Shown: positions 34,207 through 54,821 of the stretch, in pieces | How the letters are laid out: every line of letters begins with the position of its first letter | Numbering within the stretch: the stretch's first letter is position 1 | From: Asparagopsis taxiformis | Lineage: Eukaryota > Rhodophyta > Florideophyceae > Bonnemaisoniales > Bonnemaisoniaceae | Assembly (NCBI GenBank): GCA_030407315.1 | Contig: JALQPE010002092.1 | Location: 21,735 to 85,734 of the forward strand | Direction: 5' to 3' | Length of the DNA stretch: 64,000 nucleotides | Program-made: the position numbers and the translations under genes | Notes under the pieces: generated by a model | What the model saw: only the letters and a program-made list of their open reading frames with translations | What the model was told of the DNA's origin: nothing | Databases searched by the model: none

Positions 34207-34236
34207 AGCATATTTCAAAGAATGTTTATAGTGTGA

Positions 34237-35357: not shown

Positions 35358-35566
35358 GTCTGTATAATATTTCGCACCGACAATAAAATTTCGCACCAAT
35401 ATTGGCACATAGATGGATAATGAGGGGCGCCGCAATGAATCCGTTGCATGAATTGTATTCTGACCGTTATGGGGAAGGGAACCATGCACTGTGCTTTGTT
35501 GAAGCGGAACGAATCAGTGGAATTGACATGGTCATGAGTGGTGTGACATTAAAATTTCGCGCACTG
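35358..35566 (-). repeat. Right terminal inverted repeat of the Tc1 element
   Basis: Reverse complement of 33998-34206 with scattered differences near the inner end. It carries the same outer and inner direct-repeat motifs. Confidence 0.88.
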
Positions 35567-35604
35567 TACGTGGCCACCGGACGGGGAGAGAAACGAAGTA
35601 GGTT

Positions 35605-36006
35605 GTAGAAACGTAGATAGATGATTTTACCAAGTCTAGCTTATCTCTCCCAGGTTATTCCGACCGCTGGGGGCTGCATTTAGCTTCCTACAATTGGACG
35701 GCTGGAAACTTCCAGACGTCCATCTAACCCTAAATTAAAATTCTGGTAGAAATTACCTGTAGAATTTTTCTTGTAAAAGTCATTTCCACATGACCCCCCC
35801 GGCCAGACCGAGGCACCGAGGAGGTCTAATTTCGCAGGTTCTGGGCTGCGCTCGGTATAAAAGCGGGCAGTACCTTCGCGTGGGTCTGGATTCCAGACCC
35901 TCTTCCACCGCTGACCCCTTCCTTACTGTAAGCACTGTAAGTACTTTACATTAGTTGTTAGCTTACTGTAGTGCGATAACTGACAGTAAACGTCTGTTCA
36001 CCGTCA
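35605..36006 (-). repeat. Possible 3' LTR of element B
   Basis: A ~400-bp segment that starts TGTAGAAACG and ends CCGTCA on the plus strand, so it has TG...CA ends in either orientation. Immediately to its right is a pyrimidine tract (TCCCGCCTCTCGCCTTCCCT, about 36007-36026). On the minus strand this is a purine tract in the position expected of a polypurine tract for a minus-strand retroelement. The partner LTR is missing because element B's other end is lost at 55866, so repeat identity cannot be tested. The strong TATA at 35856 points the opposite way, so the assignment is tentative. Confidence 0.35.
35856..35863 (+). promoter_or_regulatory. TATA box upstream of the H3-tail reading frame
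   Basis: TATAAAAG in a GC-rich setting, 261 bp upstream of the ATG at 36117 and pointing towards it. It would drive a plus-strand transcript antisense to element B. Confidence 0.5.
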
Positions 36007-36116: not shown

Positions 36117-36455
36117 ATGGCCAAGACGAAGCAGACCGCAAGGAAGTCGACTGGGGGGACTGCCCCACGGCGGGAGCTAGCTGCTCGAGCGGCGCGGATC
36201 CCCAGACGAGACCCCCCGTTGCTCCTGGCACCTACCGTCACGAGGGCGGCCAGGAGGTACGCTATCGCCCCGGGGAAGCCGTCCCCGTGCGGGCCAACGA
36301 GGTTAACTTCGACGACAAATCTCATCGGGGAATTCGTTAGAACCTCTTCCGTTGGTTCGGACGTGAAGACGTCCAGAACATCCGCCGCTCCTCCGACCAC
36401 TGTGGTCGTTTCGTCGTCGACTTTGGCCGAAATCTTCGCGATCCGTGCCAAGTGA
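36117..36455 (+). CDS. Reading frame with a histone H3 N-terminal tail
   Basis: 113 codons from ATG. The first residues are MAKTKQTARKSTGGTAPRRE. Over positions 1-26 of mature H3, 20 of 26 residues match the near-universal tail. K4, R8, K9, S10, T11 and R17 are kept. Changes are R2K, K14T, K18R, Q19E, T22A and K23R. From position 27 this frame stops resembling H3 and becomes a Pro/Thr/Ser-rich sequence that looks like an off-frame translation. In the frame of the next feature (-1) H3-like sequence reappears (YRPG at the place of H3 residues 41-44). So the original gene may have been a full H3-like domain broken by an insertion of about 23 bp. Origin by capture of a host H3 gene is inference; the tail match is seen directly. 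Confidence 0.75.
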   Translation: MAKTKQTARKSTGGTAPRRELAARAARIPRRDPPLLLAPTVTRAARRYAIAPGKPSPCGPTRLTSTTNLIGEFVRTSSVGSDVKTSRTSAAPPTTVVVSSSTLAEIFAIRAK

Positions 36456-37576
36456 CAACCAGGGAACTAGAGTTCCTCTTCGGGCCTCAGATCGTCGAAT
36501 TCGCCTCCGATCCGGCCATCTCCATCCTTACCGCGGAGATGGCTTGTCGTCTCGGTCTCACTGAATCCCACGGTGACACCGAGAAGTACGCCGAATGCCC
36601 TGACGACACCGATTGGATCATCGAGAATATCTGGTCGTCGAAGGGCGGTGAAAACGGCGAACTGGAAGGCTGCTTCTACGCCTCCGCCGAAGGGGAGCGA
36701 ACCGGCCATCGAATCGATCTGTATACCATGGTTTTCCATCAGGTTTCTGAACCGGCGGAGCGCGACGCGGCACTCCAGGAGCAGGATAATCCCTCTCCTG
36801 TGACCCGAGAGAGTGTTCAACCCTCGCGGGTGAGTTTAATAGCCAGCCTCGACGCTTGGTGTTATAAGAATCCCGGCAAGAAGAAACGAGTCAATGTCGC
36901 CATGGCTCGGGTGCCCTCCCACGAAACCCCTGAGTTCTTCGTGGGGACCCCGCAGAACAGCCTGGTGGTACCAGTGCAGGACTTCACCAACAACTGCCTG
37001 CGTGCCGCGGCCGCCAATGGTATCGCTCTCGTATGCGATTTCGACACCGCCGATAGGTTCTTCCGTCGGGAGTTGGCCCGGTACGAAGAAGAACGCCTTA
37101 TTAGTGGTTATTGTACAAGCGTCGTGGACTTTGGTTCGGTCTCGAAGGCCATCGCCGATCGTGCTCCATCGACGGTTACTCTGTCCCGAGTGGTGATTCC
37201 GCGTTTCGATTTAGGGGCCCCAGATTCTCGCTCTAGGCAGTGGGTGTGGTTGCGGAAGGAACTTTCGAGACAGCCGGACGTGTACGTAGTACAGGTTTGG
37301 AGTAGAGATGGGCTGAAACACGCCATCTGTATCGACTCGCGTTCCCAGCCTGGTCTGATCTACGACTCTTCGGAGGCTTTTGTTATGAGTCTAGAGTCTC
37401 GGGCATTCTTCTTATGTTGCAGCACCAGCAAGTCGTCGGATTTCTCGGCATTCGATGACCTTCGACGTGTCCGGCGGGTGGGCTTGAATCAAGAGGAGAA
37501 ACGCGCGAAACGTCAGCGCCTGAGGAAGCGTGAGAAAGTCCGAAAAGCGAAAATTGATGGTGCGGGGTCGTCGTAG
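36341..37576 (+). pseudogene. Degraded H3-like core continuing into a possible cysteine-peptidase-like domain
   Basis: Open frame of about 411 codons after an in-frame TAG at 36338; there is no ATG near its start. Just before and after the TAG the frame reads IR-stop-xLF....REDVQN, which lines up without gaps with H3 helix-1 sequence IR-K-xxF....RE..QD. This suggests Lys64 became a stop. After about residue 45 the resemblance ends. Downstream is a ~330-residue domain with NNCLRAAAANGIALV, then KHAICIDSR and GLIYDSSEA: a Cys, a His and an Asp in the order used by papain-like or C39-like peptidases. The end is basic (KRAKRQRLRKREKVRKAK), probably nuclear. Function of the domain is a guess from residue order only. 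It lies antisense in element B, between the integrase 3' end and the putative LTR. Confidence 0.5.
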
Positions 37577-37743: not shown

Positions 37744-37938
37744 TTAATGTAGTAAATGTAGCGGGCGCCTGCGGAAGAGAAGTAGACGTCTCGCATGGAT
37801 GGGGCGGCGTGATACCTTCGCTTGGTCGGAGGCGAGTAGGTATCGGGGGTGGCTAGATTGGATGACCTTAAACGGTCCGTACCACTTCGTTTCGAACAGC
37901 GACAGCTTCGTCGTTCCGAAAGCTTTACCCTTCGTTAC
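37744..37938 (-). pseudogene. Element B integrase C-terminus (left of insertion)
   Basis: Reads ...TKWYGPFKVIQSSHPRYLLA...RRPIHARRL, the typical end of a Ty3/gypsy integrase, then a stop at 37744-37746. If element A and one GTTAC are removed, this frame joins exactly, without a frame change, to the sequence right of 51,456 (...FEVGDEVLVT|KGKAFG). That proves where element A inserted. Confidence 0.85.
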
Positions 37939-38607
37939 TGTAGTATACGTGGCAATTCCGAAATTGCAAATATTTACGTTTTCCGCGGAATTCGAATTTC
38001 GGCGGATACGACCGGCGACAGCAATGAACGAACATTGCTGGCGCATGCGCGCGCGCAACCGGCACACGTGTGCAACGAACGTATTGGCAACGGCCAACGG
38101 ACCAACGGGTCCCTACGTGTGACCCACAAGGTCCTTTCCCATTCGGGGACGTTACGAGCAGTGTTTACACTGTAAAGCGATGCCATCGTGGCTATATAGG
38201 TATTGGCATCGTGCCGGGAGGGACAGGGGACAAGACAACGATCGGGCAACGTGCTCTAGTCTACGACTGACTTCTACGTTACGTATTACGTTTTCGCCTA
38301 ACGAGGCTCCGTCTCCGTCGAGCTGCGTACTCCCTACCCATCGCCACACGTGAGGCTGATCGCGTGTAGTGCCTACGGGCTTGGTTGAGAGCGCCTCCGG
38401 TGACGTGCCACCTCGTTCGTTAACGTAGTCCACGCGTGGATCGTTCGTCGTGACGCCCGTGTCTACCTGCTAACCTATTCTCTACCCTATTCTTTCTTTG
38501 CTACCGAACATACAGTCAAAACACCAGCGGGTGGACTTATTCGTTTCGTTAAGGACAGCGTGTCCGTGGCTCGTACCAGTTACTTCTAGAACTAACGTTG
38601 TTCCACA
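37939..38607 (+). repeat. 5' LTR of element A
   Basis: 669 bp, TGTAGTATACG...TTCCACA. A TATATA at 38193-38198 is a plausible promoter. Nearly identical to 50788-51456. Confidence 0.95.
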
Positions 38608-38608
38608 C

Positions 38609-38626
38609 TGGTCTCTCGACCTAGAA
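38609..38626 (+). promoter_or_regulatory. Primer-binding site, probably for tRNA-Tyr
   Basis: TGGTCTCTCGACCTAGAA begins one base after the 5' LTR. Its complement would be a tRNA 3' end with GAGAGACCA, an acceptor strand pairing with a tRNA that starts CUCUCG. Eukaryotic tRNA-Tyr has this kind of acceptor (yeast tRNA-Tyr starts CUCUCGG). It does not match the more common initiator-Met site. Confidence 0.55.
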
Positions 38627-38711
38627 GTTGCTACGAGCATAACGACAACCAACGAGGTTGAACTCTTTTACGTTAACGAGAAGCTACGTGCTACGCTACA
38701 GACGACGGTCT

Positions 38712-41114
38712 ATGAATTACGCTGTGTCGAATTCCAGCGCGTCGCCCAGGCAACCGTTGCCAACGTCAGCGGACGCCGAAGCCGACGTGGCCTTGTCAGC
38801 AGAAGCGATCTTCGCGACTGATCGATCTATCCCGCCGGATATCGAGGCGATCGGCCAGCTACCACGTACGGTAAGCCCGTTTGAGTCCGTGAGCATGGAC
38901 CCCGCAACGCGCGGTCAGCTCAACGAAGGGAACGTGACTCCCACGGCACTACGTGTAGTGTACGAAGACCTTCGAGGTCACATCGAAAGGGCGAGCGACG
39001 CGGCCGTCGACGAAGCCGTAAGGCAGAGACTCGGAGTCTCGGAGCGCGAAGCTCGTGCGTTACGTGAACGCTCAGCGACCCTCGAACGGGAAAACGAAGA
39101 TTTACGAAACCGCCTCTCCGCCGTGGAGGGAAGACTCGACTCGTTTGTCGTAGTATTCAACGAAATCGTCGCCGGACGTTCCGCTCCGCCGAGCGGAAGC
39201 GATCCGAATTACGAAGGCTCGCGCGCCTATAACTCGCAATCCTCCCCGGCCGTTCCGGGAGGATACCCACCAACACCCGGTCCGACGACCCCGACAACGT
39301 ACGGAAGGGGGGCGACAGTGCAACGAGCCATCGCCAACCCCGACGAGACGCCACGAAGGCAATTACGTTTTAACGATACGCCAGACCACGCGCGGTCGGC
39401 GGACGCAGCACGAGCTGCGCAATTCGATACGAGAGCTCCCCCGCCACGTGAAACGTACATTCCGTGGCTGGGAACGTTCGGCACGACGGACACGCGAGTC
39501 CACGAAAACGAACGTGCCGACGCGGTACGCTTACCAGGGAACGCCCTCGGACCCGTTTGCCACGCGTTGGCAGAGCACACGACAATGCTCGACGCATTTG
39601 CGAACGTGGTATCGTACCGCATGTACCGACTTAACGATGTACGTGAACATCTCTACGTGAACGAGAGTCAAAGCGTACATAAGCTCAAACGTGAGCTGGA
39701 GGGGCTTTTCCCTACGTTAAAGCCGTTCTCCGGCCGGAATCCGATTACGTTACTCGGATTCCTCGCCCAAATACGTGATGGGTTCAGCACACTCGGAGTG
39801 TGCGAGGGAGTGGCAGTACGTGCGCTGCACTTCTTCCTCGAACGGGACGCCCGACGGTTCTACGATTCCCAGTGTACGACTGGTGTGATCACGACTGATC
39901 CGACGAAGAGGTTCTCGTGGCCTCACATGATCAACGCGTTGATCAAACGATACCTGCAAGACGACGTGCTGCAGGAGGCCTACGAAAAGGTCACGATGAT
40001 CACGCAGAGTCCTAACGAGGACGAGAATCAGTACGCTGATAGACTCGACACCGCCACGCGGGCGTGTAACTACGTGTTTACGGACCGACTCCTCGTTCAC
40101 CACTACGTACGTGGTTTGCTGCCCTCGACGCGGGCAGCCGTGACGGAACGACTCCGGTCACTCCCCGAACGAGAGAGGAACGACCTCACCGTTGTGAGAC
40201 GATTGGCGACGGCCGAAGGAACGACCTTCCGTGCACGTACGGCAGCTGTCGCGTCAGCCGCGAAACCGAAAGTGCGGTTTCCGGTGAAGCCTACGTTGGC
40301 TATTTCCGACCACGAGTCGAGGAAGTTCGCGGACTACGATGAGTCCGCGTACTTACGTAATGAACGGGCTAGCGAGCCCAGTTACCACGATGGTAACCCG
40401 AACATACCCACGAGGGATGATGACGACGTGTCGCTCGCTGCGGCTCACGTTGCCGAGAATTTAGAGGCGATCCTCTTCACGAACGGGCCGCCGCCCAACG
40501 ATACGAAAACGGCAAACGAAAAGCCGGACGAGCTCGAAGCTCGATTGAACCGTCCGTGCGAGGACGTGCCGAAGCTCACGAGCGAGCAGACGCAATTGGC
40601 GCACTCCGTAATCCCGAATGATTACTGGACGCTGTCGTGTTGGTCATGCCGCGAAGATGGCCACTCGACGTTTACGTGTCCGCGTCTGACGCCAGATCAA
40701 CGGATCTTTTTCGCGTACAAGTACTACCTCTCCCACGTGAAGAGCAACCCACGTCAGGCTGAGTACTTCCGCCAACGAATGGCCAAACGTAACCAGGAAC
40801 GACCTGGCGAGCGAGGGGACGTGACCCCGCGGAGGTACGGCACGCCGCCTACGATACTCCGAAACCCCAATCGTGACGGGGGGAGGCCCTTCGACAGGCG
40901 CCGCGGCGACTTTCGCAATGACCGACGTGACCCCCGCCCGTGGGCGAACGAACGAAATGGCCAGCGTAATGGCCGCAGCGGAGTCTACGTGACGACCTCC
41001 GCTGACGAAACACCACTCGAGGTGGAAACGAGTCACGATGACGAACGAGCTTCGTGGGCTCACGACGACGACGTGTCGAACGGCCCCGCGCCGGAAAACG
41101 ACCAGGCGATGTAG
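38712..41114 (+). CDS. gag: Element A Gag polyprotein
   Basis: 800 residues from the first ATG at 38712 (MNYAVSNSS). It forms the particle core that packages the element's RNA. The N-terminal third is Ala/Glu-rich and contains a strong coiled coil (RQRLGVSEREARALRERSAT and following). The middle has a retrotransposon-gag-like helical region (ALIKRYLQDDVLQEAYEKV ... NQYADRLDTATRACNYVFTD). A single CCHC zinc knuckle, CWSCREDGHSTFTC (C-x2-C-x4-H-x4-C), lies at about 40,649-40,680. An Arg/Asp-rich tail follows (RRGDFRNDRRDPR). It overlaps pol, which is in the -1 frame, for 61 bp. Confidence 0.88.
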   Translation: MNYAVSNSSASPRQPLPTSADAEADVALSAEAIFATDRSIPPDIEAIGQLPRTVSPFESVSMDPATRGQLNEGNVTPTALRVVYEDLRGHIERASDAAVDEAVRQRLGVSEREARALRERSATLERENEDLRNRLSAVEGRLDSFVVVFNEIVAGRSAPPSGSDPNYEGSRAYNSQSSPAVPGGYPPTPGPTTPTTYGRGATVQRAIANPDETPRRQLRFNDTPDHARSADAARAAQFDTRAPPPRETYIPWLGTFGTTDTRVHENERADAVRLPGNALGPVCHALAEHTTMLDAFANVVSYRMYRLNDVREHLYVNESQSVHKLKRELEGLFPTLKPFSGRNPITLLGFLAQIRDGFSTLGVCEGVAVRALHFFLERDARRFYDSQCTTGVITTDPTKRFSWPHMINALIKRYLQDDVLQEAYEKVTMITQSPNEDENQYADRLDTATRACNYVFTDRLLVHHYVRGLLPSTRAAVTERLRSLPERERNDLTVVRRLATAEGTTFRARTAAVASAAKPKVRFPVKPTLAISDHESRKFADYDESAYLRNERASEPSYHDGNPNIPTRDDDDVSLAAAHVAENLEAILFTNGPPPNDTKTANEKPDELEARLNRPCEDVPKLTSEQTQLAHSVIPNDYWTLSCWSCREDGHSTFTCPRLTPDQRIFFAYKYYLSHVKSNPRQAEYFRQRMAKRNQERPGERGDVTPRRYGTPPTILRNPNRDGGRPFDRRRGDFRNDRRDPRPWANERNGQRNGRSGVYVTTSADETPLEVETSHDDERASWAHDDDVSNGPAPENDQAM

Positions 41115-44100
41115 GTCACGAGCCACCCACATCGCCTGAACCCTTACGTGAAAGGGGGACGACCGACGTCGATGATTGGTCCTCCGCAGGCTCACCGATG
41201 AACGAGAGTTACGTAAAGCTCACGGCCGCGAAGGCCAACTCGAGTCACACGACACCCGACGTGGGGGAAGAAACGAAGTCCGACGGGACGAACGAACCTC
41301 ACACGAAGAGGAAGTCTCGCAGACGAGCGAGACGCGCTACCCGGAAGCACGACGCTTCCGAGCGCGAGAAAACCAAGCACGCGGCTTATACGAAGCGTGT
41401 CGACGCAAAAGAAGCCATACGGGCTCATACGGTGAAGCGACGAACCGCTAGCGAAGACGTAGACCGCGCGCCGGTCAGGACCGAACCGTTGGTTCTCGAT
41501 GGGCATACGTGCCTACTTGCGTCGAAGCATTATATCGTGTCCGGAACGATCGGACTAGACCTCAACGTGATGAGGGCGATTACCATCGCGATGGATACGT
41601 GCAGCGGCTACAACTTGATACGAACAAGTTTACTACCCTACGACTGGGTCGACCGCTGTCTACGTGACGAAGAGCTACCGAAGCTCGGAGACGCCAACGG
41701 GCGACGTTTGCCTATCGAAGGCGCCATCCTGCTTCGTGTCAGGTTGGGGAACTCGCTGTTCCGCGTAAAATTCTTCGTAGCCAACACGCTGGCCGTTCCC
41801 GTTATAATGGGTACGTCGTTCATGTCGAAGCATGTCGATGCTATACGCTGTCGAGCGCAGACAATCGACCTCCATCGGGGGGATACGATACCCATTATCG
41901 CGGAGGGCGATACGACGACTCCGTACGAGGAGGGGGAGGAGACGAATCCAAACGTGGAGCCCCCGAAACGCCGCGAGCGTAACGCGGCCTCGAATAGGCC
42001 GAGCCGAACGTTCTCGGTTCGCCTGACGAAGTACACGCGTGTACCGGCGATGTCGCAACGGACCGTCAACGTGACGACGGATGCGACCGGACTCGTGTTC
42101 CTTGAACCGAAAGCGTCGGTGCAATTCCGGCATGGGCGGCGCATAGCCAACGGAGTGGTCGACGTAGGACCGAGAGAGACGTTCTCTATCATCGTGTCGA
42201 ACTTCACGAAGAAGGACCGCGATTTGCCGAAAGGCGCAACGATTGCGTACGCGGTACGCTCCCCGTTGGGAATCGTCCCACTCAAGCGTGAGGGCGGCGA
42301 AGCCCTCGCGAAGGTTTTGAACCTACCGTTAGTCGACGCGACGACGCGGACAACAACGAACGGGCTGGGCGACGAAACGCCAGACCCGTTGGTCAACGAA
42401 AAGGGGAACGACCCCGCCACGAATTGGCAGTCGACAATCGATTTGTCGCACCTCGACGACGAGTATTTACGAAAGCGCATCAACGAGATGCTAGCTACAC
42501 ATTCGTCAATGTGGACGAGCGGACGCCTCGGCGAAATCAATGCTACGGAGCATCGAATCGAACTCGAACCGGGCACGCGGCCCATACGTTCAATGCCCTA
42601 TCGTCAGGGTCCGGCTCTACGTACGATAGCCGAGGAGCAGATCACGAAGATGCTCAACGAAGGGGTTATCGAACCCGCGTCCAGCGAATGGGCGTCACCA
42701 ATCGTGTTGGTGCCGAAAAAGGACGGATCCTTACGCTTCTGTGTCGACTACAGACGTTTGAACGCGAAAACGATCGCTGATTCGTACCCGCTTCCTCGTA
42801 TGGAAGACTGCCTCGATTCGTTGGGCGACGCCGCCATCTTCACGACACTCGATTGTAACGCCGGTTACTGGCAAGTGCCCGTCTCCGCTGAGGACCGTGA
42901 TAAGACAACGTTTACGTCTTTCATGGGAACGTATCGCTACGTGCGAATGCCATTCGGGCTACGAAATGCCCCCGCTACGTTTCAGCGGACGTTGGACATC
43001 ATCCTCTCCGGAGTACGTTGGCAATCGTGCCTGGTCTACTTAGACGACATAATCGTCTTTTCGAAAGACCTCGAGTCTCACCTGGGTCACGTTGACCAGG
43101 TGCTTTCCCTGCTACGCGCAGCGGGAGTAACGTTAAAGCTCACGAAGTGCTCGTTCTTTCAACCACGAGTTGACTACCTGGGGCACGTGATTACCCCAGG
43201 GAAGCTGCACGTCGCAGCTCGGAACAAGGAAGCCTTTCGTACGGCTACGTTCCCACGAGACAAGACGCAATGTCGATCGTTTTTGGGCGCGGCTAACGTT
43301 TACCGCCGTTTCGTAAAGGCGTATGCCGAGATCGCTCGGCCACTCAACACGATGTTGAAGAAGGACGCTTCCCCCGATTGGACGAACCCAACTGACGCGC
43401 AAACGAATGCGTTCGAAACGTTGAAGACAATACTGGTGTCGCCACCAGTATTGCACCTTCCGAAGGCGGGACGTCCGTTCATGATCGATACCGACGCGTC
43501 GGCGTATCAGCTGGGAGCTACGTTGCTCCAGCAGCAGAACGAAGATAAGCCCAACGAATGGGTGCCGATTGGGTACTGGTCGAAGACCCTTAACGAAACC
43601 GAACGTGGTTACTCGGCGACCGAGCGCGAGTGTTACTCCGTCGTGTGGGCGATAACGTCGCTCCGACCCTACGTAGAGGGTCAACGATTTACCGTACGCA
43701 CGGATCACGAAGCCTTACGTTGGCTGATGACGTTAACGGACGCGTCCGGACGACTACTACGATGGAGGCTACGCGTTGCCGAATTCGATTTCGAAGTCAC
43801 GTACAGGCCTGGGCGCGTGCACCAGGTACCTGACGCTTTATCACGCGTGATATCTACGTATGACGACGGTCGACCCGTCGACGACGACGACCCGTCGAAC
43901 GAGACTCGTGATGAACGAACATCAGCCACGACGGCTGGCCACGATGGCCTCGAGTTCAACCACGACGCGTCGCTCGATGACATCCTTGACGAGGAACCGG
44001 ATTTCCTCGACGAACAGCGTGCTGCTGAAGACGATTCGGCACGCGTGCCACCAGCTGACGTTCAGCTTCCCATTACGAGGGACGAGCTTATCGAAGCTCA

Positions 44101-44266
44101 ACGCGAGGACGCGTTCTGTCAAACGATACTGACACGACAGTCCGAGACGCAGGACGCTGCATTCTTCGAAGGCCACGATGGCTTACTCCGACGCCGGAAC
44201 CCTCACGACGAGAACGTACACAAATCGTTGTGCCGGCTTCGTTACGGCCGCGGCTGCTGGAGTTAA
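41054..44266 (+). CDS. pol: Element A Pol: protease, reverse transcriptase, RNase H
   Basis: About 1,070 codons, in the -1 frame relative to gag and overlapping its end, so probably made by -1 frameshifting. An N-terminal Arg/Lys-rich linker precedes the aspartic protease, whose active site reads AMDTCSGYNLI rather than D-[ST]-G-A. The reverse transcriptase contains LRFCVDYRRLNAKT, FTTLDCNAGYWQV, MPFGLRNAPATFQR and the catalytic YLDDIIVFS. RNase H has FMIDTDASAYQLGATLLQQ and VRTDHEALRWLM. The frame ends at 44266, just before the integrase, which continues in another frame. The product copies element RNA into DNA in cytoplasmic particles. No internal stop was seen. Confidence 0.92.
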   Translation: MGSRRRRVERPRAGKRPGDVGHEPPTSPEPLRERGTTDVDDWSSAGSPMNESYVKLTAAKANSSHTTPDVGEETKSDGTNEPHTKRKSRRRARRATRKHDASEREKTKHAAYTKRVDAKEAIRAHTVKRRTASEDVDRAPVRTEPLVLDGHTCLLASKHYIVSGTIGLDLNVMRAITIAMDTCSGYNLIRTSLLPYDWVDRCLRDEELPKLGDANGRRLPIEGAILLRVRLGNSLFRVKFFVANTLAVPVIMGTSFMSKHVDAIRCRAQTIDLHRGDTIPIIAEGDTTTPYEEGEETNPNVEPPKRRERNAASNRPSRTFSVRLTKYTRVPAMSQRTVNVTTDATGLVFLEPKASVQFRHGRRIANGVVDVGPRETFSIIVSNFTKKDRDLPKGATIAYAVRSPLGIVPLKREGGEALAKVLNLPLVDATTRTTTNGLGDETPDPLVNEKGNDPATNWQSTIDLSHLDDEYLRKRINEMLATHSSMWTSGRLGEINATEHRIELEPGTRPIRSMPYRQGPALRTIAEEQITKMLNEGVIEPASSEWASPIVLVPKKDGSLRFCVDYRRLNAKTIADSYPLPRMEDCLDSLGDAAIFTTLDCNAGYWQVPVSAEDRDKTTFTSFMGTYRYVRMPFGLRNAPATFQRTLDIILSGVRWQSCLVYLDDIIVFSKDLESHLGHVDQVLSLLRAAGVTLKLTKCSFFQPRVDYLGHVITPGKLHVAARNKEAFRTATFPRDKTQCRSFLGAANVYRRFVKAYAEIARPLNTMLKKDASPDWTNPTDAQTNAFETLKTILVSPPVLHLPKAGRPFMIDTDASAYQLGATLLQQQNEDKPNEWVPIGYWSKTLNETERGYSATERECYSVVWAITSLRPYVEGQRFTVRTDHEALRWLMTLTDASGRLLRWRLRVAEFDFEVTYRPGRVHQVPDALSRVISTYDDGRPVDDDDPSNETRDERTSATTAGHDGLEFNHDASLDDILDEEPDFLDEQRAAEDDSARVPPADVQLPITRDELIEAQREDAFCQTILTRQSETQDAAFFEGHDGLLRRRNPHDENVHKSLCRLRYGRGCWS

Positions 44267-45522
44267 CGCACCACCACGTCCTCGCTGGACATCCCGGGCA
44301 AACGCGTATGTACTATACCCTACGGAGGACGTACTACTGGCCCGCGATGGCCGCCGACATCCACGCAACGGTACGAAACTGCGTTGGATGTGCGAAGAAC
44401 CGCGTGAAGCTTCGCAAACGGACGAACCCGTTACGTTTATTTCCGGCTACGGAGCCGCTGCGAGACCTATGTATCGACATACTAGGTCCGCTTACGAAGA
44501 CCACGCGTGGTAACCGATTTATTCTCGTGATAACGGACCGCTTCACGAAGCTGACTAGAGTCGTACCTCTACGAAATATCGATTCCGCCAACGTGGCGAG
44601 CGCGTTCGTCAACGCGTGGGTCTTCTCGTATGGACCCCCACGGACGCTCATAAGCGATAACGGAAAGCAGTTCGCTGCTAAGTTTTTCCAGCGCGTCTGC
44701 AACGAAATCGGCGTGACGAACGTCTTTACGTCGACGTACCACCCCCAAACGAACGGGCAGGTGGAGCGCTACAACAGGACGATCCTGGCGATGCTGCGCA
44801 ATTACGTGAACGAAAACCAGAACGACTGGGATCGATACGCATCGGCGTTAACGTTTGCGTACAACACGCATGTGCATTCGAGCACGGGCACGACGCCCTT
44901 CGATTTGATTCTCACGAATCCACCGCCACCGTTGGCGCTACACACGTCGGTAACGAACCGCGAACTACCCGACGGGGGAGGGCGAGCCACTTACGTTCGT
45001 GAGCTCGCCACAACGATGGATAACGCGTATCGAACGCTGAAGGCCGCGCAGGCACGTTATAAACGAAATTTCGACAAGCGAGTCCGTGTCTCGAATCGAA
45101 ACATCCGCGCGGGAGAATACGTATTCATCGACCCGACGGACGGGACCACGAAGGGCACGAAGCTCGGCAACCACGCGTTGGGACCGTTCCGCGTACTACG
45201 TAACGACGTACGAACGTTCGTCATCCAACGAGGAGACGTAGTTGAACGTGTCAACTCGGACCGCGTTGCGTACGCGCCAACGCCGGCGAACGCGCCCCCG
45301 CCGGAGCCATACGATGCCACCGAGGCAGACCTCGACAAGAACCGCGACGGTCCGGCGTATGTAGTAGACGACCTACTAAACCATCGCGTAAACGATGACG
45401 GCACCCTAGACTTCCTCGTGAAGTGGGTCGGGTATCGTAACCCTACGTGGGAACCCCGCCGGAACGTATCTGAAGAGAGCGTCTCTCGATACTTCGCACG
45501 CGTGCGACGAGCAACAACGTGA
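44230..45522 (+). CDS. Element A integrase with C-terminal chromodomain
   Basis: About 430 codons, in the -1 frame relative to the RNase H part. Zinc-binding HHCC domain: HHHVLAGHPGQ...NCVGCAKN. Catalytic D-D-E: CIDILGPL, LISDNGKQF and HPQTNGQVERYNRTI. A GPF/Y-like module follows (NHALGPFRVLRNDV). The end is a chromodomain, about 45,355-45,510, with YVVDDLL, LVKWVGYRNPTWEP and a final helix; the Tyr, Trp and Tyr of the methyl-lysine cage are all present. Chromodomains of this class can bind methylated H3K9 and steer integration to silent chromatin. The upstream frame contains IVVPASLRPRLLE, canonical for the stretch before the zinc finger, so the shift falls near 44,215-44,235. Confidence 0.93.
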   Translation: MPASLRPRLLELTHHHVLAGHPGQTRMYYTLRRTYYWPAMAADIHATVRNCVGCAKNRVKLRKRTNPLRLFPATEPLRDLCIDILGPLTKTTRGNRFILVITDRFTKLTRVVPLRNIDSANVASAFVNAWVFSYGPPRTLISDNGKQFAAKFFQRVCNEIGVTNVFTSTYHPQTNGQVERYNRTILAMLRNYVNENQNDWDRYASALTFAYNTHVHSSTGTTPFDLILTNPPPPLALHTSVTNRELPDGGGRATYVRELATTMDNAYRTLKAAQARYKRNFDKRVRVSNRNIRAGEYVFIDPTDGTTKGTKLGNHALGPFRVLRNDVRTFVIQRGDVVERVNSDRVAYAPTPANAPPPEPYDATEADLDKNRDGPAYVVDDLLNHRVNDDGTLDFLVKWVGYRNPTWEPRRNVSEESVSRYFARVRRATT

Positions 45523-48010
45523 AAGGCCACGACGGCCCCCGAAAACGCACACGAGCGTCGGGTTAAGCGCACGCGTGCGCGACGTTGCACGATGCAACAA
45601 ACGAAGGCGACGAGCCGCACGAACGAGAAGCGAAGGCACAACGAGTGGCCGGGACGTCCACCCTTGCGTTGGGGGGGCGCGATGCGTGCTAGAGCCGTCG
45701 CTCTTTTCGTTTTCGACACCATACGTTGGGGAGGCACGAGCGCCAACGAAAGATTGGACGACGAGTCCACGCGCGGACGATTCACACGATGTGAAGAGCC
45801 ACGACTGGCTCGACAGTGTTGACCGTCCCACGGGCAAAGGTGACGACACCACGGGCCACGGACGGACAACACGTCAGATTTTTCGCGCGAAAAATTATAC
45901 GTGGGCCAGCGGGCCATGGACGCACGGTACGAAAAATCGGGCCGATTACAGTGCGCTAATCCGGCCAAATCTCGGGACACGCGTGCCCCGAAAATTTCGT
46001 AATTTTGGCACGTCACGTGAGCCATCGTACGTCCCCGTGGACAGCCGCTGACAACGAGTCGCATCGACCAACGAGGTCAACGCCAAACAGCTCGCGAGCT
46101 AACGGCAACGTGACGCCGGAAGGCGGAGAAACGACGTAGGACGGACGCGTCCCCAACGAAGATGGCAACGGCCTCATTACGAAACTCCTCGCACGAAGCG
46201 GAACGAAGCTATACGTTAGCCGACGAATTAGACCAACGGGTCTCAGCGCACGAAGCGCGCGAGTAAAGCGTGCGAACGACGAGCCAACGAGGCCGCGACG
46301 ACGGACGGCGAACCGAATCGCCATCGTGAGGCACGACGCCGAACACGGTAGCCACGTACGGCAACCACGGAACGACACAACGGTGTCCTGCCACGCGGGC
46401 ATAACGAACGACGCGCGAAAGCGAAAAGCCCGCCGGCTAGTCGAAGCGCACGAACAAACCCAAAAGGGGTTGACCACGTACGGTCACGAAGACGAAGACG
46501 CGCACGTCCGCGTCGCAACCGTAAAAGCTAACGAAGCTTCAACCTCGTACGCATTCGAAGGCGCACGCGCCACCGCCCGTGGCCAGGATACGAGCGCGTA
46601 CGCGGACGTCGTAACGATAACGACGTACCTCAACGGGCCGAACGCACGAAACGAAATACGAATACGCGACGGCGTACAAGCTGGTAGCCAACGTAAACGG
46701 CACAGCGAAGGCGACGAGCCGACGAAAAACTGGCTCACGTAACAGCCTCAAACGCCCGCGGGCATGCGAAACGACTTCGTCAATCGCGTCCCCGTCGGGT
46801 TCGCAAGTCGAATGAACGAAATTACGCAACGGCGTAGAGGGCGAGCATTACGTATGCCCGGTGCACGTCGCACCACATAACGGATGAGCTAACGAAACGC
46901 TCCTCGGACGCCGCGGCGAACGACGCCACCACGCGAAGCGGACTATCGCAACGATTGCGCCACCGGCTAACGTGAAGCCGCGGGAACGTGAAGCGCGACG
47001 GCGCTAACGACGTGAACGGCTATACGAAAAGCCAAGCCCGCCGGCAAACACGTCGTTAACGGAACCGCAACGTACTGCGACACGCCGCCGCGTACACGCC
47101 ACGGCGTAGAACGTCAAACCAACTCACGCGCGAGTCGGCCTGACGCTTAGCGAATTTTTCGTCCAGCTCATCGGAGAAATTAAAATTGGCACCGACGTGC
47201 TACGTGCCAAAGAGCTCGAACGCTCAACGGAATTCGACACCCGACGGGGTTATCCGCACGAGAACGACGGCGGAAACGAATTCCGAGATAGTTACAAAAT
47301 TAACGCCACTGGCCAACGTGAAGCCGCGGCAACGCGAAGCGCGACGGCGCTAATGACGTCAACGGCTATACGAAAAGCCAAGCCCGCCGGCCACCACGTC
47401 GTTAACGGAACCGCAACGTACTGCGACGCGCCGCCGCGTACACGCCACGGCGTAGAACGTCAAACCGACTCACGCGCGCGTCGGTCTGACGTTCGACGAA
47501 ATTTCCGCCAAGCTCATCGGAGCAAATTAAAATTGGCACCGACGTGCTACGCGCTAAAGAGCTCGAATGCTCAACGAAATTCGACACCCGACGGGGTTAT
47601 CCGGACGAGGAACGACGGCGGAAACGATTCCTGAGTTAGTTACTAAATGATACGCACGCCAACGGGCTCTAAGATCGAGGTTAATGTACCACTCGCAGTG
47701 AAAAGCCGCCGCTACGCGCCGCCGCTTTGCCGAATAATTGCGTGTGTTACGAACCTGCCAACGGGCACGCGCCGCCGCGAACTCGAAGCACGGGCTACGT
47801 AAGCCGTACGACACCCGACGGGGTAGACGCCACAACAAAAAATTGTGGGGAGGGGCTTAACGCTAAACCCCTCCCCTGCTGCAGACGACCTGCCAAACGC
47901 AAATTACGAAGCTCAACGGAGCCATGCGATTACGCAAAGAAACAAGACGAAGTTTACGAAGCAATACGATGCTAGAGCCGACGTGGCCTACGAACTAACC
48001 TAGGAACGAC
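45523..48010. other. Element A non-coding 3' region
   Basis: About 2.5 kb after the integrase stop. Reading frames exist on both strands because ACG/CGT-rich DNA has few stops, but none has protein-like composition or a motif. It includes a 346-bp tandem duplication. Regions like this in large plant and algal Ty3/gypsy elements are often of unknown role. Confidence 0.6.
46965..47656 (+). repeat. Tandem duplication, 346-bp unit, inside element A
   Basis: GGCTAACGTGAAGCCGCGGG at 46965 recurs as GGCCAACGTGAAGCCGCGGC at 47311. Similarity continues through GTTAACGGAACCGCAACGTA, the CACGCGCG block and the GGGGTTATCC block in both units. The copies differ at several percent of positions, so the duplication predates the insertion. 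Confidence 0.8.
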
Positions 48011-49120
48011 CTAGTAGCGACGAGAACGCTTGCCCGCAGGGTCATACGGACCAGGGCCTTCGCCGCGACTATCGTGGCTGCGGCTGCGAGTGGGCTGAAC
48101 GAAGCCCGGCGCGTACGGATCGACGGTCTGCGTGGCCACGGGGGCTCGCTCGCGACGCGACGCGGGGTCCCTAGCGTAAGGATCCGCAGTCCCGTGACTG
48201 CGCGTATCCGAAGGGTACGCCGCCGCGTGGCCATACCCAACGGGGTTTCCGTAGCCGCCGCCACTTGCGTATCCATAGGGATCATTACGAACGCCAACGG
48301 GCGGCGCGTAACTACGAGTCGCCGCGGCGAGACGCTCAGAAATCGCGCGTTCCGTTGCCAAGCGGGCAGTCAGGTCCAAAGTCTGGGCCCTGAACTCTTC
48401 GGCTGCGCGAGCCACGGATGAGATGAGGGAACGAATAACCCAGCCGTCCGCACGGGGCGGAGCGGCCATCGACGTACCGAGAAGCCGACGGGCATCCTCA
48501 TCGGAGACGCGGTCGTCCAGGCTCACGAAGCGTGGCGCACGTTCGGCCGGCGTGGCCACATCCGAGCGACCGACACGGGCAACGTCGCCCCCTTCCGTGG
48601 CCTCGCGAGGCACAATTTCACGAGGATCCGGCGCACGCGGCGCTTCATCTTGCTGGCCACGACGGCCAGAACGTGACCCGCGAGGTCGATTACTGCCACC
48701 GAGGCCGCCGTAGTAGCCCGAACGATTGCCACGACGGCGTTCGACTCGGGAAACGTCCCGCGGTACGTACGCGCCGTCGCTGCGTACCTGGACGAACTCT
48801 TGGTTGTCCCCGGTCGCGTAATCCGGGCGCACAACGCGATACTCCGGCCCCAACGCGAGGGCGCCGCGAGTCTCCGCCACCACGCCGGTGACGGAAACGA
48901 ACATGTCGGAGCCTTCGACCGGCATTGCACGAAGCAATTCGTAATCTGCCAGGTAGTCCAGCGTGGACTCCGGCAGTAGGCACGCGCGCCCAAACACACG
49001 CCGCTCCACGTAAAGCGAGCAAGCGAACATCGCTGCGTGCTCAACGTCCACCGCCGTGAGGAAACGTTCCTTCACCTCCGCAGGCGCGTCCTGCATCGTT
49101 CCGGTGAAGTAATGTACCAC
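48011..49120 (-). CDS. Element A antisense frame 2 (Arg/Gly-rich protein)
   Basis: About 370 codons on the minus strand, opposite to gag-pol. The first 90 residues look folded (EVKERFLTAVDVEHAAMFAC, VFGRACLLPESTLDYLADY). The middle is Arg/Gly-rich (GNRSGYYGGLGGSNRPRGSR), suggesting RNA binding. A helix follows (SVARAAEEFRAQTLDL, RLATERAISERLAA), and the end is Gly/Tyr/Pro-rich and basic. It begins with GTG and overlaps the end of the next antisense frame in another phase, so the two may be one product joined by splicing or by a lost frameshift. Function unknown. Confidence 0.5.
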   Translation of the reverse strand: MVHYFTGTMQDAPAEVKERFLTAVDVEHAAMFACSLYVERRVFGRACLLPESTLDYLADYELLRAMPVEGSDMFVSVTGVVAETRGALALGPEYRVVRPDYATGDNQEFVQVRSDGAYVPRDVSRVERRRGNRSGYYGGLGGSNRPRGSRSGRRGQQDEAPRAPDPREIVPREATEGGDVARVGRSDVATPAERAPRFVSLDDRVSDEDARRLLGTSMAAPPRADGWVIRSLISSVARAAEEFRAQTLDLTARLATERAISERLAAATRSYAPPVGVRNDPYGYASGGGYGNPVGYGHAAAYPSDTRSHGTADPYARDPASRRERAPVATQTVDPYAPGFVQPTRSRSHDSRGEGPGPYDPAGKRSRRY

Positions 49121-50189
49121 GCGAGGTAATAACGTAGATGACCCGCGGGGATACGGATACGCGCCCTACTACGTCTGGCAGCGTCGGGAAATAGTCCCTA
49201 CCCGGAACACCTAGCGAGGTGGACGCGTGCGACACACGAAAGTCGTCCGCGTCGGCGTAACGGAGCGCGAAGTAGTCGTCGTACGATATGACGCGGTTGC
49301 CCATAACGCTCAACGAGAGCGCGGTTTTCCACTCGGCACGCTGCCGCTCCGTCAATGTCCGCGGACACACGTACACGGACGCCAACGCAGTGAACGGCGG
49401 TTCCTCGGGCGTCCCCTTCCATAAGTACGCGTCCATGATGTCTACGTAGACCGCATCGTCAGCGTCGCGCAACCACGAACGGTCGCAACGAATCGACGCC
49501 GGATCTGGTAACGAACCGATCCCGCGGTCCCGTGGGCGAAACGACGCCCGGCACGACGCCCCCACGAATCTTCGCAATGCGCATGTACTCGAGTACTGCG
49601 CGTGCGTCCAAACGATCTTTGGCCAGCGTGGCCACGTCCTCGTCCGACACAGCCACCGAGGCAGCACCGCCCACGCGTGGGATAGGGAACTCGCGTCGAG
49701 CGCGACGCCGTTGCGATCGGAGGTTCCGACGGTTCCCGTGGGAACGTCCAACCCTGACGAGTCCCGACGGGGAGACTGGGGAGAACCCTCACGACGAGGT
49801 TCGCCAGCGCGCGACGCTGCCCCGGCACGACGTAAACGAGCGGCCGCGGCCATCGCAGCCACTCCACGACCAGAGGGCACGACCTCCGGCACTATCGGTG
49901 ACTCCGGACTCGAGACAGACGCCGCGGCGTCGCCATCAGCAGGGGCAGCGGCCCCTACAGCCTCGACAGGCGGAACGGGAGCCGTCGGGCGTGACGATGA
50001 GGCAACGGCCTGCGGAGCAACGGCTTGAACCGCCCCAACGGACGGGGCGGGCGCGACGGACGCTTCCGTCGCTGGCAGCGCACCGACCCTGGCGAGGGAG
50101 GGAGCGCCCTGCGAAGGGTTCCTCGCTCCACCTCCAGCAGAGCCGGCGGGCCGCGGAGTGTTAGCATCGGTGCTACGGGTCGTAACCAT
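49041..50189 (-). CDS. Element A antisense frame 1
   Basis: Starts at the ATG at 50189 (MVTTRSTDANTPRP). The first ~130 residues are Ala/Pro/Ser/Val-rich. Between about 49,690 and 49,460 the frame turns Trp/Cys/Arg-rich, as off-frame translations do, while the neighbouring minus-strand frame reads protein-like (VSDEDVATLAKDRLDARAVL, EYMRIAKIRGGVVPGVVSPT). From about 49,455 the first frame is protein-like again (DADDAVYVDIMDAYLWKG, NRVISYDDYFALRYADADD). Two compensating frameshifts, or an alternative reading, must be assumed. Antisense genes between integrase and 3' LTR are known in some plant gypsy elements; no homology to them could be checked. Confidence 0.45.
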   Translation of the reverse strand: MVTTRSTDANTPRPAGSAGGGARNPSQGAPSLARVGALPATEASVAPAPSVGAVQAVAPQAVASSSRPTAPVPPVEAVGAAAPADGDAAASVSSPESPIVPEVVPSGRGVAAMAAAARLRRAGAASRAGEPRREGSPQSPRRDSSGLDVPTGTVGTSDRNGVALDASSLSHAWAVLPRWLCRTRTWPRWPKIVWTHAQYSSTCALRRFVGASCRASFRPRDRGIGSLPDPASIRCDRSWLRDADDAVYVDIMDAYLWKGTPEEPPFTALASVYVCPRTLTERQRAEWKTALSLSVMGNRVISYDDYFALRYADADDFRVSHASTSLGVPGRDYFPTLPDVVGRVSVSPRVIYVITSRGTLLHRNDAGRACGGEGTFPHGGGR

Positions 50190-50770
50190 CGTGGTTACGC
50201 TGTACGCAATATTCACGACGAGTGCAACGAGCACAAGGACGAAGGCCACGCGGGCAAGACGAAACGAGAGAACGAGGAGAACGGAAGCAGCCAGGAGTAC
50301 CCAGCGGGGGAAAAGGGAGTGCGGAAAGAAAGGCAACGGCCTGGATGTCGATGGTGAGAGGAAGGGTGAGCGACGATCGCTAACACGTTAAGCCGCGGCT
50401 TAAATAACCTTCCGACGACCGTCGTCGTAATGCCCGTTGGCAGATTCACGAAATGGCCGCGGCCTGCGCTCGTATCGCGCTGAATTGAAGCACACCCGCG
50501 TGGTGGAATTGGACACTGCATTCGTTGCAGGGAACGCCTAAGCGAGGCATTGACGTACGATGCCAACGGGCGGGCCGCGATGATTACGAAAGAGCCGGAG
50601 CGCACGCGCGCGCTCCGGCGCCGTGGCGATTCGATCAGCCAACCGGGCCGCGTACGTTTAAACGAGATTTTTTCGGGACAACTGCCACGTCCGCAGTTGT
50701 ACCCGAAAAGGCGCCACGGCCCCGTGTCTCAGGCGCGTCCTGACGGGCCTCGCGTGGCCGGGACGTCCAC

Positions 50771-50784
50771 GTGTGGGGGTGGGG
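50771..50784 (+). promoter_or_regulatory. Purine-rich tract before 3' LTR
   Basis: GTGTGGGGGTGGGG lies three bases before the 3' LTR start at 50788, the place of the polypurine tract that primes plus-strand DNA synthesis. It is interrupted by three T residues, so it is an imperfect tract. Confidence 0.6.
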
Positions 50785-50787
50785 CTG

Positions 50788-51456
50788 TGTAGTATACGTG
50801 GCAATTCCGAAATTGCAAATATTTACGTTTTCCGCGGAATTCGAATTTCGGCGGATACGACCGGCGACAGCAATGAACGAACATTGCTGGCGCATGCGCG
50901 CGCGCAACCGGCACACGTGTGCAACGAACGTATTGGCAACGGCCAACGGACCAACGGGTCCCTACGTGTGACCCACAAGGTCCTTTCCCATTCGGGGACG
51001 TTACGAGCAGTGTTTACACTGTAAAGCGATGCCATCGTGGCTATATAGGTATTGGCATCGTGCCGGGAGGGACAGGGGACAAGACAACGATCGGGCAACG
51101 TGCTCTAGTCTACGACTGACTTCTACGTTACGTATTACGTTTTCGCCTAACGAGGCTCCGTCTCCGTCGAGCTGCGTACTCCCTACCCATCGCCACACGT
51201 GAGGCTGATCGCGTGTAGTGCCTACGGGCTTGGTTGAGAGCGCCTCCGGTGACGTGCCACCTCGTTCGTTAACGTAGTCCACGCGTGGATCGTTCGTCGT
51301 GACGCCCGTGTCTACCTGCTAACCTATTCTCTACCCTATTCTTTCTTTGCTACCGAACATACAGTCAAAACACCAGCGGGTGGACTTATTCGTTTCGTTA
51401 AGGACAGCGTGTCCGTGGCTCGTACCAGCTACTTCTAGAACTAACGTTGTTCCACA
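50788..51456 (+). repeat. 3' LTR of element A
   Basis: 669 bp, same as 37939-38607 except one C/T difference noticed by eye. Followed by the GTTAC duplication at 51457-51461. Confidence 0.95.
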
Positions 51457-51461
51457 GTTAC

Positions 51462-52810
51462 CAGGACCTCGTCGCCTACCTCGAACCGTCGCTCAGGTAG
51501 ATGGGCTCGAGCTCGGTTATTACGCAGATGCGTTTCTACCCTGCTCGCCCTTACCGACTGGAGCTAACATCTCAAACAGCCGGGATTGAGGATCCAGCGG
51601 ACGGTCCAGAAGCGGTGACGGGTCGTGGGCGACTACCCTCGGGACTACTCCGTACATCAGTTCGAAGGGGGAGGTTCCGCCTGTCATGCAACGACGGCGA
51701 TAACCGTAGAGAACGTGCGGAAGAAGCGTGTCCCATTCGACCGAGTCCCTTCCTTTGACTTTGGCTAAGGACTTCTTGATGGTCCTACCATCCGCTCGGC
51801 TCGCCCGTTAGACATAGGGGAGTATTCGAGCACGGTCTTCCAGTCGATCCCGTTACTCCTCATGAAGTTCGCGAGTGTCGCGGCTGTGAAACACCCCGCA
51901 TTGTCGGATACGATGGTAGTCGGGGGACCGAAAGAGAAGATGATCTCATCCTTCACAAAATTGAGTGCGACATCCGCGGTACTAGCTGCGGTGGCCCTGG
52001 CGATAGGCCAGCCAGTGAGGTGTTCGACGGCGATGAGAAGGAATCGGTTACCCTTGGCCGTGCGCGGGAGCGGCCCTGCAAAGTCGATGGAGAACGTGTG
52101 GAGAAGGCCTGTCAACGGCTGACTTAAGGTAGCCTACGCTATCGGACTGAGTCCGATAGCGGGGTACCGGCTGTGTTCTTCTGACACCCCTCACAACTCT
52201 TAACGTAGTCGTGAATGTCATTGCCCATACGCGGCCACCAGTAACGTTCCACGATAAACTGGCGGGTCGAAGCAGCGTCCCAATGACCGATGTTGTCGTG
52301 GAACATTTGCAGGATCTTGATTCGGAACGGAATCGGTGCGACGACCTTGGGTCCCAACGCGGTGCGGCAGAATAGCTGGTCTTCCCAGACTAAGAAATCC
52401 TTGGAACTCCGTCGAATCTTTTGTCGAGTGAGACCCTCTACTTCGGGCTCAGCTCCACCCCGTAAGTATTGGAACACTGCGACTAGGTCAGGTTCTATGC
52501 GGAGGGCTTCTGGAATGGCAAGCAGAGCGAGTTCGCCCTCATCTTCTCCTGACCCCGGAGCGGTCTGGGCTTGTTCTACACAGGACAAAAAGTCGGCAGC
52601 TGAGTTCTGCCTTCCGGCCTGAACGAGATAACGAAGTCGTATTCCGCGAGGAAGTCGAGCCAACGGGCGAGTCGTCCGTGTATATCCCTCTTCTGGAAGG
52701 CGTATTGCAACGCTTGGTGATCCGTCATCAGCTTGAAGGGCTGCGTGGAGAGAAGGTAGAGTCGGAACTTCTTTAGTGCGAAGATAACTGCTAGGGCTTC
52801 TCGTTCGCAT
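51462..52810 (-). pseudogene. Element B integrase (zinc finger and catalytic core) with the RNase H/integrase linker
   Basis: Minus-strand frames between 52810 and 51462. The zinc finger reads HDNIGHWDAASTRQFIVER, WWPRM and SCEGCQKN. A stop follows at 52139-52141. The core resumes with SIDFAGPLPRTAKGNRF, TTIVSDNAGCFT and MSNGRAERM, giving D-D-E. After 51765 another frame continues (KKSLAKVKGRDSVEWDTLLP, GGTSPFELMYGVVP) up to the insertion point of element A. At least two frame changes are present, so no functional enzyme can be made. Confidence 0.85.
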
Positions 52811-53019
52811 GCCGAATATTTTCTTTCGGCCGTATTCATTGTCCTGCTCGCGAATTGAATAGGATGAATACGCCCGTCTTCCTTCTTCTGCGCTAGGACA
52901 GCTCCGACGGATACGGAGGAGGCATCTGTCTCGACTACGAAGGTAGTATCGAAGTCAGGGAAGGAAAGGACAGGAGCCGAAGTTAGTTTTTCCTTCAGCG
53001 TCCAGAAGGCCTGATTCAT
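52576..53019 (-). pseudogene. Element B RNase H
   Basis: Ty3-type RNase H: FVVETDASSVSVGAVLAQKK, FASRTMNTAERKYSACEREA and LMTDHQALQYAFQKRDI. The frame shifts near both ends relative to the reverse transcriptase and integrase fragments. Confidence 0.85.
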
Positions 53020-53411
53020 CTCCTCTGTCCATTCGAAGGAACGTCCAGAAGAGGTAATGGGAATAGAGAAGCCGAGATGTCGGCAAACCCTTAATGAACC
53101 GGCGATAGTAGCCCGCCAAACCGAGGAAGCTGCGGAGCTCGGAAGCAGTTTGCGGCGGAGCTACGTCTCTAATGGCAGAAATCTTGGCGGGGTCTACTGA
53201 CACCCCATCCTGGCTAACTATGTGACCAAGCAACTCGACTTTAGGTTGAGCGAAGAAGCATTTGACGATCTTCAGCTTCAAACCCCTCTGACTTAGGGTC
53301 TCGAAGAGGATACGAAGGTGGGAGACGTGTTCTTCCATGTTTTTAGAGAATACCACAACGTCGTCGAGATACGCTCGGACGAATGGCAGATCCTTGACCA
53401 TCTCATCCATC
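52955..53411 (-). pseudogene. Element B reverse transcriptase, second half
   Basis: Begins DEMVKDLPFVRAYLDDVVVFS, with the catalytic YLDD. It continues through LGHIVSQDGVSVDPAKISAI and FLGLAGYYRRFIKG (thumb/connection). It is separated from the first half by the solo LTR at 53412-54170. Confidence 0.85.
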
Positions 53412-54170: not shown

Positions 54171-54561
54171 ACATCATTCTCTGGAAGGTGGACGGGGCAT
54201 TCATTAATCCAAAAGGCATAACTTCGAACTTATAGGTGCCGTACCGCGTGACGAAGGTCGTGATCTCCTTACAAGCGGTATCCATTCGAATCTGCCAATA
54301 CCCAGAGAAGAGATCGAGGGTGGTAAAGAGGGAATTCCCTCCCAATTCATCGAAAATCTCTTCGATCCTGGGTAAAGGCCAACGATCTGGTTTGATCTTA
54401 CGATTCAGGATGCGATAGTCAACGCAGAAACATGGTTTCCCGTCCTTCTTCGTAGCGATGACCACCGGGAAGGACCATGCCGATGAGGCCGGAGTGATAA
54501 TTCCCGCTTCTAGCATCCGATCGATTTCGGATCGTACTACTTCGTTGTGTTTCGGTGACAA
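54171..54561 (-). pseudogene. Element B reverse transcriptase, first half
   Basis: PKHNEVVRSEIDRMLEAGII, CFCVDYRILNRKIKPDRWPL, FTTLDLFSGYWQI and MPFGLMNAPSTFQRMM: fingers and palm of a Ty3/gypsy reverse transcriptase. It ends where the solo LTR begins. It starts at an ATG-like codon only by chance; upstream sequence is in another frame. Confidence 0.88.
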
Positions 54562-54821
54562 CCGACGAGGTTAGTGGTAGACTGGGGTGGCATCTTCTAG
54601 CTCAAAGGAGTGTTTAACAGGTACGTCGGCTTTCCGGAGATCGTGAAAGGACCAAGCGACGATTCCGTAGTCCTTCAACGATTCCGATATAATGCGCCTG
54701 TCCGATGCTGACAGGTGTGCGAGCTTCTCTTCGACGAGTTTATCGTGCTCTTCGGTTTCAGAGCGGTCGCTCTCCTCTTCTACCGCTGCTTGCGGCTTGG
54801 AGAAGTCAACGTGGGCGACAA

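Follow-up and report, generated by a model that had tools for sequence, protein, structure and literature searches.

Why should a reading frame inside a retroelement open with the N-terminal tail of histone H3, and what might the element gain from it? In the window, by which we mean the whole 64-kb stretch of DNA that was analyzed, nucleotides 36117 to 36197 (+) translate as M AKTKQTARKSTGGTAPRRELAARAAR. Compared with H3 from two host genes in the same assembly (L026 and L027), 20 of the 26 residues after the Met are identical. These include K4, K9, and S10, whereas T, R, and R stand at the positions of K14, K18, and K23, respectively; the first-pass annotation of this locus had likewise found the first three kept and the other three changed. 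When the first 39 residues were compared with PDB sequences by phmmer, H3 was returned with an E value of 2.9e-7. In 200,000 shuffles with the Met held fixed, the maximum was 14 matches to H3 out of 27, versus the 21 observed. With this maximum and this E value, chance is no reasonable account of the H3 likeness.

The tail and the retroelement sequences around it are arranged in the window as follows.

35565..35790 (-): LTR of a family-A element (3' LTR relative to gag-pol), matching the LTR of the complete copy C2495
35856..35863 (+): TATAAAAG, from its sequence a candidate promoter of the antisense tail gene, within the element and outside the LTR
36117..36197 (+): Met codon and the 26 codons of the H3-like N-terminal tail, from translation, phmmer, and shuffles
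36117..36455 (+): open frame of the window copy, the tail and then an out-of-frame run (112 aa); the copy is frameshifted
36341..37576 (+): separate frame for the body of the tail protein, whose C-terminus is basic near 37500-37560; intact relatives have a single 486-aa frame for tail and body
37744..37932 (-): end of family-A pol, from its match to family-A gag-pol
37939..51456 (+): younger chromodomain Gypsy element nested in family-A pol (LTRs at 37939-38607 and 50788-51456; GTTAC on both sides)
51460..53411 (-): continuation of family-A pol past the nested element, from its match to a family-A copy
54172..55865 (-): further continuation of family-A pol; the match to the complete copy ends here

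The ATG and the upstream TATAAAAG that the first-pass annotation reported are both in place, the latter beginning at 35856. The same annotation took 36117-36455 as the reading frame. This frame is open and does begin with the tail, but it does not represent a real protein: there is a 1-base shift between the tail and the body, plus an in-frame stop before the body frame at 36341-37576, so that the 112 residues are the tail joined to an out-of-frame run. The window copy is an old member of family A, 90.8% identical to young family-A copies over the tail gene, and its second LTR was not found within the window. A near-duplicate of the region, 98.6% identical over 6.7 kb, is present at C613. Residue 8 is K in 31 of the 39 readable family-A copies and R only in the window copy and C613; because R8 is a minority state, the window copy looks slightly more H3-like than the rest of the family.

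Several other features of the window and the assembly are recorded here as observations in their own right. The LTRs of the nested Gypsy element are 99.85% identical, and its chromodomain is PF00385 (Pfam). Between its pol and its 3' LTR lie two antisense frames, 48011-49120 (-) and 49041-50336 (-), neither of whose translations opens with an H3 tail. A Tc1/mariner-like element (33995-35569) with 213-bp inverted repeats and a DDE_3 transposase at 34237-35286 (-) adjoins the tail element; the C613 duplicate has it too. A 1,265-aa frame at 27606-31403 (-) has indoleamine-dioxygenase-like, FAD-binding, and NAD-binding domains together with a cytochrome b5, and from these domains is apparently an oxygenase fused to its own reductase. 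Next to it are frames of 455 aa (24234-25601, -) and 448 aa (26186-27532, +) in an inverted, head-to-head duplication whose arms are as much as 98% alike; neither matched a Pfam family at an E value of 0.001. Elsewhere in the assembly, the phycobilisome linker family has thirteen matches, two of them on contigs (C2230 and C235) that also carry tail elements; SWIRM matches occur as well, and on C1598 a linker is found together with a SWIRM protein. As nuclear phycobilisome linkers suggest a red alga, the host is most likely one, with a glaucophyte as the less probable alternative. A Pre-SET search of the assembly had silent controls. Another Gypsy family, with 44% RT identity, is found on G000:C2106, C27, C41, and many other contigs, with dozens of equal-score places and, in many places, a 1,533-aa open frame among the matches listed, which suggests a recent burst in this genome.

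The carrier of the tail gene is a 7-kb Ty3/Gypsy LTR retroelement, which we call family A. A complete copy at C2495 (L010 plus L033) has LTRs of about 230 bp that begin with TG, end with CA, are 99.6% identical over 235 aligned bases, and are flanked on both sides by ATCCC. By Pfam, the gag-pol encodes an aspartic protease, RT, RNase H, and integrase, and the pol order is PR-RT-RNaseH-IN. A chromodomain, which would have placed the elements among the chromoviruses, was not found by Pfam in the gag-pol pieces of family A or of its sister family B, described below. The gag-pol is on the other strand from the tail gene; at C2639 it forms one uninterrupted open frame of 1,556 codons, and such a frame was present at nine loci in an RT search in which 108 of 3170 candidates were scored. 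The tail gene is thus antisense to gag-pol and occupies the interval from the end of pol to the 3' LTR; TATAAAAG is upstream of the gene and outside the LTR. The gag ATG is directly at the LTR edge (in L033, at about 1210-1225, the start codon overlaps that edge, next to sequence that may double as a tRNA primer site). In 13 family-A copies an intact frame of 486 to 487 aa, without a stop, runs from the Met of the tail.

Copies were sought across the 141-Mb assembly. When the query was the tail frame, all 98 candidates were scored and there were 81 matches; the intact protein gave 93 (88 of 102 scored). A pattern search with the first eight codons had 45 exact hits, of which 2 are the host H3 genes L026 and L027, 42 are tail elements (34 of family A and 8 of family B), and 1, at C578, is a putative third H3 gene. 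With one or two mismatches allowed, there were 68 matches, hand-sorted into about 41 family-A and 13 family-B loci; the reversed-pattern control gave 12 matches. The earlier proposals that the tail belongs to a retroelement and that a search might reveal other copies are both borne out by these loci.

Family B is a sister family whose protein is 39% identical to that of family A and also opens with the H3 tail. The tail is MARTNQTAKRSTGGRAPRKDLAAAAARR, with at most one residue different, in 4 of 10 copies; the others differ by one to several residues. The complete layout of this family rests on one copy, at C1764, which has LTRs that are 99.6% identical and GTATG on both sides. There, too, gag-pol is antisense to the tail gene, and it is 49 to 54% identical to family-A gag-pol. 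The RT identity of family-B copies to family A is 63 to 71%.

According to the first-pass annotation, other copies of the element that lack the tail would show a one-off accidental capture. All 41 aligned family-A copies have a recognizable tail, three of them without an ATG, but these copies were fetched with the tail frame and so the count is circular. The tail was not used in a search with the LTR and leader (40 of 118 candidates scored), in which 39 of the 40 matches reached the tail start, and 38 of these are at a known tail. The exceptions are C1003 (78%), which reaches the start without a listed tail match, and the fortieth match, which is LTR alone. When the loci from the RT search were hand-sorted by place and orientation, the tail was in place at 21 of the 35 loci with RT identity of at least 89%. 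At C61, C1695, and C64 the tail is plausibly present across insertions; C706 (whose tail is 39 kb away), C864, C742, C92, C210, and C2802 are outside the tail-in-place count among the 35 loci. C1967 and the window copy have their break at the same position. The intact-protein search found body pieces without a tail at C578, C581, C1562, and C2742, the first three of which are among the 35 loci, and C2436, another of the 35, looks split from C2742. Among the copies readable at that point, none has a pol that runs to the LTR without the tail gene. On balance, therefore, these copies speak mostly against accidental capture, the four body pieces aside. Three gag-pol relatives (C704, C953, and C2018; 67 to 69% RT identity) had no tail or body match in the assembly searches, and thus related elements may do without the gene. 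Their RT identity falls inside the range of the family-B copies, and they may be B-like copies without a tail gene.

We compared the family-A protein (P0001) with the family-B protein (P0003) along their lengths. The tails are identical at 20 of 27 residues, residues 28 to 60 at 6 of 33, and residues 61 to 475 at 155 of 415; no other of the 448 windows is as conserved as the tail. Yet among the four-fold degenerate sites in the tail at which the residue is shared, 13 of 17 differ, and over ten family-B copies there were 11 to 17 such sites, 9 to 14 of which differ. Synonymous positions are therefore near saturation, which makes recent conversion or exchange unlikely. That the tail nevertheless ranks first among the windows means that it has been under long purifying selection and is not an accident.

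Within family A, the pooled dN/dS among ten representatives was 0.31 for the tail, 0.35 for residues 28 to 60, and 0.19 for the body. Counting changes by site in 30 family-A rows gave, for the tail, 0.50 for all changes, 0.35 for those shared by at least 2 copies (bootstrap 0.15 to 0.66), and 0.09 for those shared by at least 3; the values for the body were 0.41, 0.21, and 0.14. (This count left out nine near-identical young copies, of which one serves as reference row, along with a short copy and two whose tails were unaligned.) The comparison of synonymous with nonsynonymous change that the first-pass annotation had proposed thus indicates that the tail is not neutral; within family A the tail is constrained, but no more than the body. 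In the 39 readable family-A copies, K4, S10, G13, R17, and L20 are present in all 39 and Q5 and K9 in 38, and position 14 is T in 39 of 39.

The tails of A and B are each identical to host H3 at 20 of 27 residues, with K4 and K9 kept by A, and R2 and K18 kept by B. Two non-H3 states, K8 and A22, are shared by A and B, which fits a single capture. From these sequences, one ancient capture of the H3 tail probably took place before the families split, followed by divergence; there may have been two separate captures, but these are not favored over one. Clear similarity to H3 ends just before K27. Although phmmer aligns residues 1 to 90 of P0001 to H3, with RYRPG common to both, most of the score comes from the tail: for A against host H3, residues 1 to 27 gave 29.8 bits, residues 1 to 95 gave 36.2 bits, and residues 28 to 95 alone gave 4.4 bits (E value of 0.005 with one target). 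For B the first two values were 28.8 and 29.3 bits, and residues 28 to 95 had no match. No histone fold was found in P0001 by Pfam at E values up to 10. A longer H3 remnant in A, extending past the tail to about residue 90, is possible but weak. The suggestion that the element captured a host H3 gene accordingly stands firmly for the tail; past the tail, A has weak similarity and B none.

The suggestion that the tail is a decoy for the methyl-writers and readers of H3K4 and H3K9 was not supported in that form by the comparison of the families. All 10 family-B copies read have N in place of K4, and 9 of them have R in place of K9; a function shared by A and B consequently cannot need those lysines. 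Common to P0001, P0003, and H3 are A1, T3, Q5, T6, A7, S10, T11, G12, G13, A15, P16, R17, L20, A21, A24, A25, and R26. These shared residues, taken with the loss of K4 and K9 in B, suggest that what is recognized is the N-terminus of the tail and its overall shape, and not K4 or K9 in methylated form.

The rest of the protein gave fewer clues. The body had no credible Pfam, NCBIfam, or PDB match, and the TRP28 domain (PF04195) was absent from Pfam matches at E values up to 10. In a collection of 5.8 billion protein sequences, for which the searches in part scored the 8000 candidates sharing the most words, the sole relative found was P0002, an intact protein of 486 aa that has the same tail and is 94% identical. 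It is encoded on a 2.3-kb public ENA contig, and the protein shares no more than 95.6% identity with any copy read (alignments over 380 residues). An AlphaFold model of P0001 built from 13 rows had a pLDDT of 36 and no usable fold. Both the A and B proteins end in a basic stretch, KRAKRxRxR.... By eye, we noted in family A the residues Q288-x5-C294, H402, and D417, which recur in B as VPIQDFHDSCIRAA, GHVVCIDS, and LIYD, a spacing that we take to be papain-like. In the 39 family-A copies, Q is present in 34, C in 33, H in 32, and D in 33, with 4 to 5 gaps at each position; in the family-B protein P0003, F replaces the cysteine. Scans of members against Pfam and NCBIfam and a PDB profile search, all at E values up to 10, gave no peptidase match.

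Hosts silence elements through chromatin, and therefore anti-silencing is the most economical benefit that an H3-like tail could bring. Our preferred reading, in which we have moderate confidence, is that the antisense gene encodes an accessory and probably nuclear protein whose H3-derived tail binds host proteins that recognize the N-terminus of H3. The tail was probably acquired once, before families A and B split. The gene between pol and the 3' LTR would be expressed, and removal of the Met would present a free, H3-like N-terminus. The basic C-terminus of both proteins suggests that they would enter the nucleus, where the tail would most likely be bound by host readers, writers or erasers, or by chaperones of the H3 N-terminus. 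The element could in this way block or redirect the chromatin silencing of its own copies. We also entertain, more tentatively and as somewhat unlikely, a bolder version in which the tail is bait and the body, possibly peptidase-like, inactivates or redirects the H3-binding proteins that are caught. The element would then disarm silencing by posing as a nucleosome, and A and B would be two diverged baits, A with K4 and K9 and B without them, the outcome to be expected of an arms race.

The H3 N-terminal region takes part in histone import, and the tail stays basic in A and B, so it might be mainly a nuclear-import or histone-chaperone handle that brings a protein with business elsewhere into the nucleus or onto chromatin. 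We think this unlikely, since the non-basic residues T3, Q5, T6, A7, S10, T11, G12, G13, P16, and L20 persist in both families, several lysines having been lost, and the C-terminus of both proteins already has a basic stretch. Because the gag-pol of A and B has no chromodomain by Pfam, targeting might instead have been delegated to another protein, with the tail tethering the particle or cDNA to H3-tail-binding proteins and so steering insertion. Against this stands the position of the tail gene, which is antisense to and separate from the integrase, and we judge such steering to be quite improbable.

Still less inviting is the idea that the protein is a tethered enzyme, whose cysteine-peptidase-like C-terminal half acts on an H3-tail-binding protein caught by the tail. 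The Q-x5-C/H/D pattern noted by eye is common to A and B and kept in most A copies; however, the profile searches returned no peptidase, the model has no usable fold, and P0003 has F for the cysteine, so that we consider this reading very doubtful. That the window copy is itself broken would suit chance, convergence, or a one-off functionless capture. The shuffles, the occurrence of the tail in dozens of copies of two families, and its constraint over a saturated distance make any such accident exceedingly improbable.

In a search of openly licensed papers we found no described retroelement that imitates the H3 tail, in agreement with the first-pass annotation, and few named transposon-encoded anti-silencing proteins. 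The layout has parallels. As described in one report, Grande of maize, Retand of Silene, and RIRE2 of rice carry antisense accessory genes, given there as having unknown roles, where the tail gene also lies, between pol and the 3' LTR; the Grande product is nuclear and its gene is transcribed from its own promoter (PMC11963269). The same text has the Retand type mostly encoding a TRP28 domain, whereas the body of the tail protein matches no family and the protein opens with an H3 tail (PMC11963269). The hosts of those three elements are plants; the host of the tail element is not. H3 coding sequence has likewise been captured and amplified by hAT DNA transposons of fungi. According to two accounts, a hAT of P. 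fijiensis contains transcript-derived H3 sequence spanning exon junctions, P. tritici-repentis has H3-like globular domains, and the additional H3 copies of the remaining Dothideomycete genomes described contain stop codons (PMC6710886, PMC3538342). Those carriers are DNA transposons, but here the carrier is a retroelement, and the tail is fused to another protein and kept by selection.

With respect to function, a likeness is seen in influenza NS1, a parasite protein with an H3-tail-like stretch that engages host chromatin proteins; there the stretch lies in the C-terminal region and the interaction is reported (PMC12937675), while the one described here has 26 residues in register at the N-terminus and an interaction that we infer. 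VANC of the Arabidopsis VANDAL transposons is a functional precedent for an element-encoded anti-silencing protein, although VANC21 binds specific DNA motifs and no histone tail is mentioned for it in the text drawn on here (PMC5735166). If the tail works as we propose, families A and B are a natural pair of diverged mimics, with and without K4 and K9, that separates the contacts of the H3 tail that matter for silencing. The antisense-gene architecture is known from plants, and the H3-tail content is new as far as we found. Antisense accessory genes of Gypsy elements occur in an alga as well as in plants, and in the alga they come with a readable chromatin clue.
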